From Rhodopseudomonas pentothenatexigens (lineage in GTDB: Bacteria > Pseudomonadota > Alphaproteobacteria > Rhizobiales > Xanthobacteraceae): a stretch of DNA of 64,000 nt. Shown here one piece after another: positions 59,170 through 62,127 of this stretch. Location of the stretch: assembly GCF_900218015.1 (NCBI RefSeq), contig NZ_UFQQ01000003.1:186001-250000 (forward strand). Reading direction: 5' to 3'. The position numbers and the translations under genes were made by a program. Within the stretch, counting starts at the first letter, position 1, and the number at the start of each line of letters is the position of its first letter. The notes beneath the pieces are model-generated. The model was not told the DNA's origin, did no database searches, and saw only the letters and a list, made by a program, of their open reading frames with translations.

Positions 59170-60915
59170 CTACGCAGCCGTTTCCCGACTGTCCCGCTCC
59201 GGCCAATCCGGCGGCCGGCCCGGTACCAACTTCAGCCCTTCGACGAGATGATCGACCCAGGTGCGATCGACGAACGGCAGCCAATCCAGAAAGCGTCTCG
59301 AGAAGGTCGGCTTGATGGCGAGCAATTCGTCGCAGGCGATCCGCGCTGCGTCGAGCTGGCCGATCCGCACCAGCGCGTTGATCTTGAGGACGTGCGCGTA
59401 CCAATAGGCCGGCCGGCGCGCCAGAGACAAAGTGGCGTGTTCGATCGCCTCCGGCCACTGTCCCAGCATGGTGTGGGCCAGGGCCAGCTCGCCCAGCGAA
59501 TAGAAGATGTTGGGATCGTTCGACGACAGCCGCATCGCGGTCTTGAGCTGGACAATGGCCCGGTCGGGCTCGCCGGCGAGGTTGAAGCAGCCGCCGAGCT
59601 GGGCATGCGCAAGCGCCAGGCTGGGCGTCAGCGTGATCGCCTGCTTCAGCAGGTTCTTCGCCTCGTTCGGGTGCCGCAGCCACATCTCGGCGATACCGGC
59701 AAGCATGAAGCCGCGCCCGTCGTCGGGATCGGCGAGCATCCCCTGCTGCGCCAGCTTGCGCATCCGCAGGATCTGCTCCTGAGGCTGGCGGCCGGCCCAG
59801 ATCGACCACGCCAGCGCCGCCGTCGCCTGGATCAGCGCTTCGGGTGAGTTGGGATCGAGCGCCAGCGCTTCGGCAAACAGCTCCTGCGCCATTTCGGAAT
59901 CCGCACGGGTCAGACGGTTGAGGTGCCAGCGACCGCGCCAGATTAGATCACTGACGCCGAGACGGTCCTGCCGTTTGCCGCGAATGCGGATCTGCTCGGC
60001 GTGATCGATCCGGCTCTCGAGCTGCGCCACTAATTCATTGACGAACGGTTCGAGTTCGTTGTGGGCCGTCGGCGACTTCAACGTGAACCGCCGCGACCAC
60101 AACGAATAGCCGGTGATTGCCTCCGACAAGGACGCCGATACGCCATACGAATCGTGGGCGCGGTACAGGCGGCCGTCGACCAGATATTGGGCGCCGAGTC
60201 GCTGACCGATCAGCTTGCGATCGTCGCTTTCGCTGAACGAGAAGCTGGAATTGCGCGAGATCACCGGGAGCCAGCGGATCCGCGACAACCCGACGATCAG
60301 TTCCTCACCGATGCCTTCGGCCAGATAGTCCAGCGTCTCGTCGCCGGTGGCATTGGCGAACGGCAGCACCGCGATCGCCGGCCGGCCGGCAAACCCCACC
60401 GGCGGTTGTGAGATGTCCACGATGTGGGACGGCAGCAAGCCGGTACCGACGCCCCCGAGCGCTGGCAGCGCCTCGCCCGAGGGGAGCTTCAGCCCCGCGC
60501 GCTGCTCCCGCAGCCACTCGCCAAAGCCGCGCTCGCTGGGAATATCGAGGCCTTCGAGAAATTCGCCTGTCGAGGCGCCCGGTCGGGCGATGAAGATATC
60601 GATATCGATCAGATCGGTTCGCAGCCGAACCCTGTCGCGGTCCCCGACCAGCAAAGCCGCGTCTTGCGAGTTCACCAGCTTTCTCAGGTTCGACAGCTCC
60701 CGGCGCAAGCTACCTGCAGCCTCTGCCTTGCGGCGACTGCCCCACAGCCGATCCTGCAACCAGCCGCGGGTTCGCTCGCCATCGCGGGACATGGCCAGCA
60801 TCGCGATGACGGCTGCCCCCTTCTTGCTGGTGATCTCGACCCGGCGCCCCCCCGGCGCCGTGAGTTCGAAAGGGCCGAGCAGCCGAAGCGCAAACCGCTG
60901 CGAATTTGCTGCCAT
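59170..60915 (-). CDS. SARP-like transcriptional regulator with TolB-N/FlgO-like and TPR domains
   Basis: 581 aa from the ATG at 60915, which follows GGGAGGGAGCTGCAGG. Residues 5-110 form an OmpR/SARP winged helix (LRLLGPFELTAPGGRRVEIT, LQDRLWGSRRKAEAAGSLRR with ELSNLRKLV). Residues about 180-290 (AIAVLPFANATGDETLDYLA, LVDGRLYRAHDSYGVSASLS) match the middle domain of adenylate-cyclase-like/TolB-N proteins. The C-terminal half is TPR helices. It is divergent from the PatA-like subtilase gene; the 240 bp between them should hold both promoters. It is probably the regulator of that locus. Confidence 0.88.
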   Translation of the reverse strand: MAANSQRFALRLLGPFELTAPGGRRVEITSKKGAAVIAMLAMSRDGERTRGWLQDRLWGSRRKAEAAGSLRRELSNLRKLVNSQDAALLVGDRDRVRLRTDLIDIDIFIARPGASTGEFLEGLDIPSERGFGEWLREQRAGLKLPSGEALPALGGVGTGLLPSHIVDISQPPVGFAGRPAIAVLPFANATGDETLDYLAEGIGEELIVGLSRIRWLPVISRNSSFSFSESDDRKLIGQRLGAQYLVDGRLYRAHDSYGVSASLSEAITGYSLWSRRFTLKSPTAHNELEPFVNELVAQLESRIDHAEQIRIRGKRQDRLGVSDLIWRGRWHLNRLTRADSEMAQELFAEALALDPNSPEALIQATAALAWSIWAGRQPQEQILRMRKLAQQGMLADPDDGRGFMLAGIAEMWLRHPNEAKNLLKQAITLTPSLALAHAQLGGCFNLAGEPDRAIVQLKTAMRLSSNDPNIFYSLGELALAHTMLGQWPEAIEHATLSLARRPAYWYAHVLKINALVRIGQLDAARIACDELLAIKPTFSRRFLDWLPFVDRTWVDHLVEGLKLVPGRPPDWPERDSRETAA

Positions 60916-61155
60916 CCTGCAGCTCCCTCCCACTTTCGGGGTCAAACTAACACTTTTCACGCGTCAATCACGCCATTTTCACGCTGAGGCCGCATCGATA
61001 AGGAGACGTTCCGCGACGCAATAAGGAATATGGAACATCTATCTTGATCGGTACGAAAATTGCGTAACAAATAGAAGCAAACTGGCGGTTGCAGGAGCGC
61101 AAGCAGGAGCGAGCTGCCTGCGCAGGTCGCAGTAGCATTCGGTGCGGGCGGGGTC
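60916..61155. promoter_or_regulatory. Divergent control region of the SARP-like and PatA-like genes
   Basis: An AT-rich segment at about 61020-61085 (TATCTTGATCGG, ACAAATAGAAGC) contrasts with the GC-rich surroundings and probably contains promoters. AAGGAAT at 61024 leads to a five-codon frame (ATG GAA CAT CTA TCT TGA). No precursor-peptide gene of useful length was found here. Confidence 0.4.
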
Positions 61156-62127
61156 ATGATTGGCGTTTCTGGAAGCGAGCTCCACCAGGAGCTGCTGTTT
61201 GCGTTCGGCGGCGGCGATCGCGACATCGCTGTCGCGGTGCTGGACGGTCCTGTCGATCGGACTCATGACTGTTTCATCGGCGCGCCGCTGACGCCGCTCC
61301 ACACCGTGGTGACGCAGCGCAGTGATGAGGATGCGCCATCGACCGCGCAGGGCACTCATCTGGCCAGCCTGATCTTCGGTCAGCCCTGCCGGTCGGTCGA
61401 GGGCATTGCACCGCTGTGCCGAGGCGTGATCGCGCCGATCTTCCGCGACAGTCGTCTGATGTGCGCACAAGCCGATCTCGCCTACGCGATGAATCGGGCC
61501 CTGGACTACGACGCGCAGATCATCCTGATCGGCGCCGGCTCGTTCGAACAACCATGGTACCCTGGCCCCTCGCTGGCGAGCGCAATCGCGCGGTGCAACG
61601 CCCGCAATACGCTGATTGTCGCCAGTGCCGACCGCCAGGGGTGCAGTACCCTTTTGCGCCGGTGCGGCACCTTGAACTTGCTGCCGGTCGCCGCCCTGGA
61701 TGGTGCCGGGCAGCCGCTCGGCGGCCATGACGGCGATCTGAACGACATCGGGATCGCCGCCCCAGGATCGAGCGTATCCGGCGCAACCTTGGAGGGGCGG
61801 GTGGTGCGGCGGAGCCATCCAAACGTCGCGGCTGCCCTGGTCACGGGCGCGGCGGCGCTGCTGCTGGGCGTCCAGCGCAACGCGGGACTTGCTCCGAATC
61901 CCGCCGCCGTCGCCGAGGCTCTTCGGATGACGGCGACGCCGCAGACCTCGCCGGCCGGATCCGCGCTGCCTCCGGCCTGGACCGGCCGGAAGAGCCTCGA
62001 AGCGGCAGCGGCGTACCTGACGGGACGCTACGAGAGCGCCTACGCGTCCAGCCTGTTCGAGGCCTGGTATCGCGCCCGGGCGGGCGCGACCCGGTCCGAT
62101 CACGCCGCGTTCCGCCCCAGGGCGTGA
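61156..62127 (+). CDS. PatA/PatG-like subtilisin-fold (S8) protein with an altered active site
   Basis: 323 aa, no signal peptide. DIAVAVLDGPVDRTHDCF (Asp30) is the hallmark of PatA/PatG-type proteases of RiPP (cyanobactin) pathways, and GTHLASLIFG (His68) is the His motif. The oxyanion Asn block (SAGNDG in relatives) reads SADRQG. The Ser block, normally GTS-x-A-x-P, reads RRSHPNVAAALVTGAAALL: aligned on the following TG-x-A-A-LL, the catalytic Ser position is Asn223 and the Pro is lost; Ser220 lies three residues earlier. It may be inactive or use a shifted Ser. It is much shorter than PatA, with no C-terminal domain. The 3' end overlaps the convergent DUF2478 gene by 28 bp. Confidence 0.85.
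   Translation: MIGVSGSELHQELLFAFGGGDRDIAVAVLDGPVDRTHDCFIGAPLTPLHTVVTQRSDEDAPSTAQGTHLASLIFGQPCRSVEGIAPLCRGVIAPIFRDSRLMCAQADLAYAMNRALDYDAQIILIGAGSFEQPWYPGPSLASAIARCNARNTLIVASADRQGCSTLLRRCGTLNLLPVAALDGAGQPLGGHDGDLNDIGIAAPGSSVSGATLEGRVVRRSHPNVAAALVTGAAALLLGVQRNAGLAPNPAAVAEALRMTATPQTSPAGSALPPAWTGRKSLEAAAAYLTGRYESAYASSLFEAWYRARAGATRSDHAAFRPRA

Follow-up and report, generated by a model that had tools for sequence, protein, structure and literature searches.

Few bacterial pseudoproteases of the subtilase fold have been described, and CspC and CspA of Clostridioides difficile are known examples (PMC6636752). They belong to another subtilase branch than the protein reported here, with a prodomain, a jelly roll and a location in the spore; a retained subtilase-fold pseudoprotease is common to both cases, and the signalling role that is experimental in C. 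difficile is one that we infer here. The closest relatives by fold are the cyanobactin proteases PatA and PagA (TIGR03895; PDB 3zxy, 3zxx, 4h6w and 4h6v). On the regulatory side, SARPs bind direct repeats with an 11-bp period, placed 8 bp from the -10 element (PMC10936776), and the site of PimR consists of three heptamers with 4-bp spacers (PMC5930380). We analysed a divergent gene pair that resembles both systems in part (Table 1), located in a window (the whole stretch of DNA analysed, 64,000 nucleotides) whose proteins have their nearest named relatives in Rhodopseudomonas.

Table 1. Features of the divergent locus, in window positions
Feature	Position	Strand	Basis
PatA-type pseudoprotease, S8 fold	61156..62127	+	Peptidase_S8 and TIGR03895 matches; PagA/PatA nearest in PDB; 19 homologues without catalytic Ser
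Regulator with SARP/EmbR-like wHTH, TolB-like middle and TPR, likely 581 aa	59170..60915	-	ATG 60915, RBS-like sequence
Triple direct heptamer CGTGAAA-ATGG-CGTGATT-GACG-CGTGAAA, candidate SARP-type operator	60955..60983	-	11-bp period, 4-bp spacers; 16/16 regulator-bearing genomes
Putative -10 hexamer of the regulator promoter, TAGTTT (TATTCT in many relatives)	60944..60949	-	5 bp past third heptamer; inferred promoter
Decayed counterpart of palindrome ATGCGA-N5-TCGCAT	61118..61132 (about 61115-61135)	+	degenerate in window
Asp30, retained catalytic Asp position	61243..61245	+	invariant 19/19
His68, retained catalytic His position	61357..61359	+	invariant 19/19
Arg160 codon, oxyanion Asn position	61633..61635	+	alignment
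Asn223 codon AAC, catalytic Ser position (PatA Ser218)	61822..61824	+	alignment

The plus-strand gene encodes 323 aa with a subtilase fold. It matches Peptidase_S8 (Pfam) and the PatA family TIGR03895 (NCBIfam; E 2e-38), the latter with 132.5 bits, below the curated cut-off of 421, whereas intact alphaproteobacterial relatives reach 473-679 bits. PagA 4h6w (E 5e-48) and PatA 4h6v, 3zxx and 3zxy are the closest solved structures, and PagA/PatA were again the top PDB matches of an AlphaFold2 model (mean pLDDT 82; TM 0.84-0.86 on the target), so that the original prediction of a PatA-like subtilase is confirmed by family, structure and predicted fold. Identity to the cyanobactin proteases is about 35-40% over the catalytic domain, and their Asp and His motifs, DG..D and GTH, are retained. 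However, the catalytic Ser, the oxyanion Asn, the SNWG loop and the long C-terminal part of PatA are missing, and no precursor peptide gene or heterocyclase gene adjoins the pseudoprotease gene, as had been predicted; inspection by eye gave no evident signal peptide. The motif DGPVD had also been read as a PatA/PatG signature of RiPP maturation; it is indeed the Asp motif of the family, but taken alone it says nothing about RiPP maturation, and TIGR03895 or S8 matches outside cyanobactin clusters are not to be taken as RiPP maturation proteases. We found no Rhodopseudomonas PatA-like protein in the literature.

In the alignment, the Ser block has the sequence SHPNVAAALVTG, in which Asn223 occupies the position of the catalytic Ser, and the oxyanion AGN block has become ADRQG, with Arg160 in place of the Asn, which bears out the prediction of a broken Ser block and a changed oxyanion residue. 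The catalytic Ser is absent from all 19 short homologues (Asn in 17, Cys in two), as is the SNWG loop; the GTSxAxP block is gone, and the oxyanion Asn persists in R. rhenobacensis only (1/19). This is the pattern of a pseudoprotease, which would be inactive in vitro. The protein might still be an enzyme with a non-standard layout, acting by self-cleavage at Asn, through a Cys nucleophile in two of the genomes or through a shifted Ser220, and the invariance of both Asp30 and His68, together with the two Cys residues at the Ser position, would fit such a layout. Yet the oxyanion Asn is lost in 18 of the 19 along with GTSxAxP and SNWG, and Ser220, which had been proposed as a shifted nucleophile, is ruled out by the Arg found in its place in seven genomes; we consider residual catalysis very unlikely. 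The Cys-bearing proteins, from R. faecalis (L016) and R. palustris JSC-3b (L017), recall thiol-subtilisin, but their oxyanion Asn is lost. All 19 short proteins share two further residues, A64 and C78, that occur in none of 15 intact relatives, which suggests, at the level of the alignment, a new constraint specific to the clade.

The short form of the gene is present in all 16 genomes of the genus and in three close relatives, and it is open in all 19. Elsewhere in a sample of 398 genomes from the order, the only relatives found were three long ones, in all of which the GTS block and the AGN motif are intact. In the phylogenetic tree, the 19 short proteins form one clade apart from the 15 intact PatA-likes (support 100/100). 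Pairwise dN/dS of the pseudoprotease gene is 0.14-0.30, similar to that of neighbouring genes. A sequencing error, which the original prediction had allowed for in case homologues showed a normal GTSxAxP block, is ruled out, as is a pseudogene, by the open genes and the dN/dS values, and the genus homologues are without GTSxAxP. The pseudoprotease does diverge faster than its neighbours, with about 50% protein identity where the regulator holds 75%, as a decaying gene might; with 19 open genes, dN/dS at this level and a conserved fold core, we give decay next to no credence. The comparison thus strongly supports a maintained pseudoprotease, in which the loss of Ser is clade-wide and the fold is kept by selection. 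The inactive half of the predicted "inactive sensor/adaptor" agrees with this clade-wide Ser loss, purifying selection and retained fold; the sensor or adaptor half is a role that the protein may have.

The pseudoprotease gene has modC, DUF2478, the regulator and housekeeping-type genes as conserved neighbours. The convergent gene on its 3' side encodes a DUF2478 protein (PF10649, E 2e-44), followed by what we take, by eye, to be a ModC-like ABC ATPase. On the other side the regulator ORF is open to a GTG at 60960 (59170-60960, minus strand, 596 aa), and the start at ATG 60915 is favoured, since relatives prefer it and an RBS-like GGGAGGGAG lies upstream of it. The divergent order of pseudoprotease and regulator is kept in 16 of the 19 genomes. 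In R. faecalis, JSC-3b and R. rhenobacensis the pseudoprotease gene lies between the same outer neighbours without the regulator, and no DUF2478 gene was detectable at the locus in these three. They are sister to the rest in the ModC tree, so that one branch has gained the regulator or else the other has lost it. The pair is conserved, and the prediction that it forms one unit holds for gene order and the common divergent promoter region; as an obligatory unit it does not hold, because three genomes have the pseudoprotease without the regulator and relatives of the regulator adjoin another gene with no PatA-like gene beside them.

Profile search related the regulator N-terminus to EmbR (2fez, E 1e-7) and AfsR (8hvr, E 7e-4), and it thus has the OmpR-type wHTH of EmbR and of the SARPs AfsR and PimR; the Pfam match to Trans_reg_C is weak and present in only three of ten members. 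The C-terminal part is TPR, as in AfsR. The middle part we recognise, without a family match, as TolB-like, presumably resembling the TolB-like/TPR sensors of alphaproteobacteria, in which it differs from AfsR, PimR and EmbR. No Pfam match to a BTAD was found after the winged helix and no NOD was detected; the structure model is poor (mean pLDDT 58), and of low confidence for a BTAD. Since no BTAD was detected, we use the term SARP-like and not SARP. The genome encodes a single paralogue of the regulator, with 38% identity (L115:6255-8348, contig C57).

The divergent region contains a direct repeat of the type found with AfsR, PimR and EmbR. Three CGTGA cores at 11-bp spacing are present in all 16 regulator-bearing genomes, and a pattern scan of the 16 genus genomes found exactly one triple heptamer per genome in the 14 that have the regulator and none in the two that lack it, while the reversed control pattern was absent from all of them. 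When the intergenic region of the window was shuffled 2000 times, no shuffle attained the score of the site. When one mismatch is allowed, the only other triple site in this genome is a near-copy upstream of the paralogue (L115 8384-8410), so the site is nearly unique in the genome; the two-heptamer form is likewise limited to the regulator locus in most genomes. The repeats are oriented towards the promoter of the regulator itself, and the putative -10 follows the last repeat after 5 bp, not 8 bp as at SARP sites. Going by this pattern, there is a good case for autoactivation, with the regulator acting at the triple heptamer to switch on its own promoter. At the regulator locus of G173, which represents another genus of the family, a candidate operator was rejected, as its triple is weak and about 10% of shuffles attain its score.

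The pseudoprotease has an upstream element of its own, the palindrome ATGCGA-N5-TCGCAT, which 8 of 16 genomes have in exact form and 4 more with at most one changed base. It begins 45-59 bp before the start codon in relatives and is rare (0-2 sites per genome). Comparison of relatives brought out no conserved short ORF in the divergent region. A short minus-strand reading frame (60957-61110) ends inside the operator (RENGVIDA*) and is open in many relatives, several of which begin with MRxTRI. We rejected it as a hidden precursor peptide: neither its sequence nor its length is stable among relatives, and a period of 11 bp does not correspond to a whole number of codons, so that the operator better explains the conserved end of the frame. 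The frame probably results from the operator and an upstream palindrome, with a leader peptide still conceivable.

The regulator is also associated with a second gene. In seven Rhodopseudomonas s.l. genomes a protein of 1490 aa, with P450 and DyP-peroxidase signatures, is encoded directly 3' of it, and this gene is missing from the locus in 9 of the 16 regulator-bearing genomes; the window lineage lacks it there, and so do three further genomes. The tandem of regulator and P450-DyP also occurs in G173; in other families it carries a cyclase-like N-terminus in place of the winged helix, and in neither case does a PatA-like gene adjoin. A paralogous pair lies on contig C57 of this genome, where no PatA-like gene was found. 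Because such tandems occur elsewhere without a PatA-like gene, the regulator does not descend from a dedicated partner of the pseudoprotease, though it may have become one secondarily. Giant proteins with an N-terminal P450 signature and a C-terminal DyP-type peroxidase signature (about 1400-1700 aa; L034:12057-16526, plus strand; L033, L035, L036, L037, L040, L086; L115:1331-6409, minus strand) are usually encoded directly 3' of a TolB-like/TPR sensor with a winged-helix or cyclase-like output, and we found no description of such fusions in the literature. An IS3-like transposase gene is close to the paralogous pair on contig C57.

These associations bear on whether the two divergent genes work together. 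They might be mere neighbours, with an independent pseudoprotease and a regulator that, as part of a module with P450-DyP (lost in the window lineage), controls only itself and that enzyme. The recurrence of the tandem in the seven genomes, in G173, in other families and as a paralogous pair, the sister position of the regulator-less clade and the separate palindrome at the pseudoprotease all speak for such independence, but P450-DyP is absent in 9 of the 16 genomes and yet regulator and operator are intact there and the divergent order is never broken; we regard independence as a real possibility, with a probability short of even. We put at about an even chance the reading we prefer, a cytosolic pseudoprotease that binds peptide or protein beside a self-controlled SARP-like TPR regulator, to which it may be coupled. 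Such coupling, physical or regulatory, may exist and is somewhat favoured, because the divergent order is unbroken in 16 genomes; what weakens it is the lack of the regulator in three genomes, together with the separate palindrome. Against the preferred reading as a whole stand the three genomes (R. rhenobacensis, R. faecalis and JSC-3b) in which the pseudoprotease persists although the regulator is missing, the heptamers that face the regulator promoter, and the palindrome that the pseudoprotease has to itself in 12 genomes. No interaction or expression data for the pair were found in the literature.

The preferred reading might then be pictured as follows. A full-length PatA-type protease would have lost its C-terminal half, the catalytic Ser, the oxyanion Asn and the SNWG loop and kept its fold and Asp-His pair, and selection would maintain the product, most likely as a module that binds peptides or proteins in the cytosol. 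The SARP-like TPR regulator would most likely use the triple heptamer to activate its own transcription, and in seven genomes this would also drive the downstream P450-DyP fusion; the pseudoprotease, by binding a peptide or the TPR surface, could set the activity of the regulator. More tentatively, and with a rather low probability, the peptide-recognition fold of a RiPP maturation protease could have become the sensory partner of the regulator, in a one-component-plus-adaptor circuit with a single operator per genome. A PatA-derived pseudoprotease, fixed genus-wide beside a regulator with about one operator per genome, offers a small and manageable example of how an enzyme can become a non-enzymatic component.

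At the other end of the pseudoprotease gene, the 3' end overlaps with that of the antisense DUF2478 gene (62100-62127), and this overlap may be at least part of the reason for the conserved C-terminal SDHAAFRPRA.
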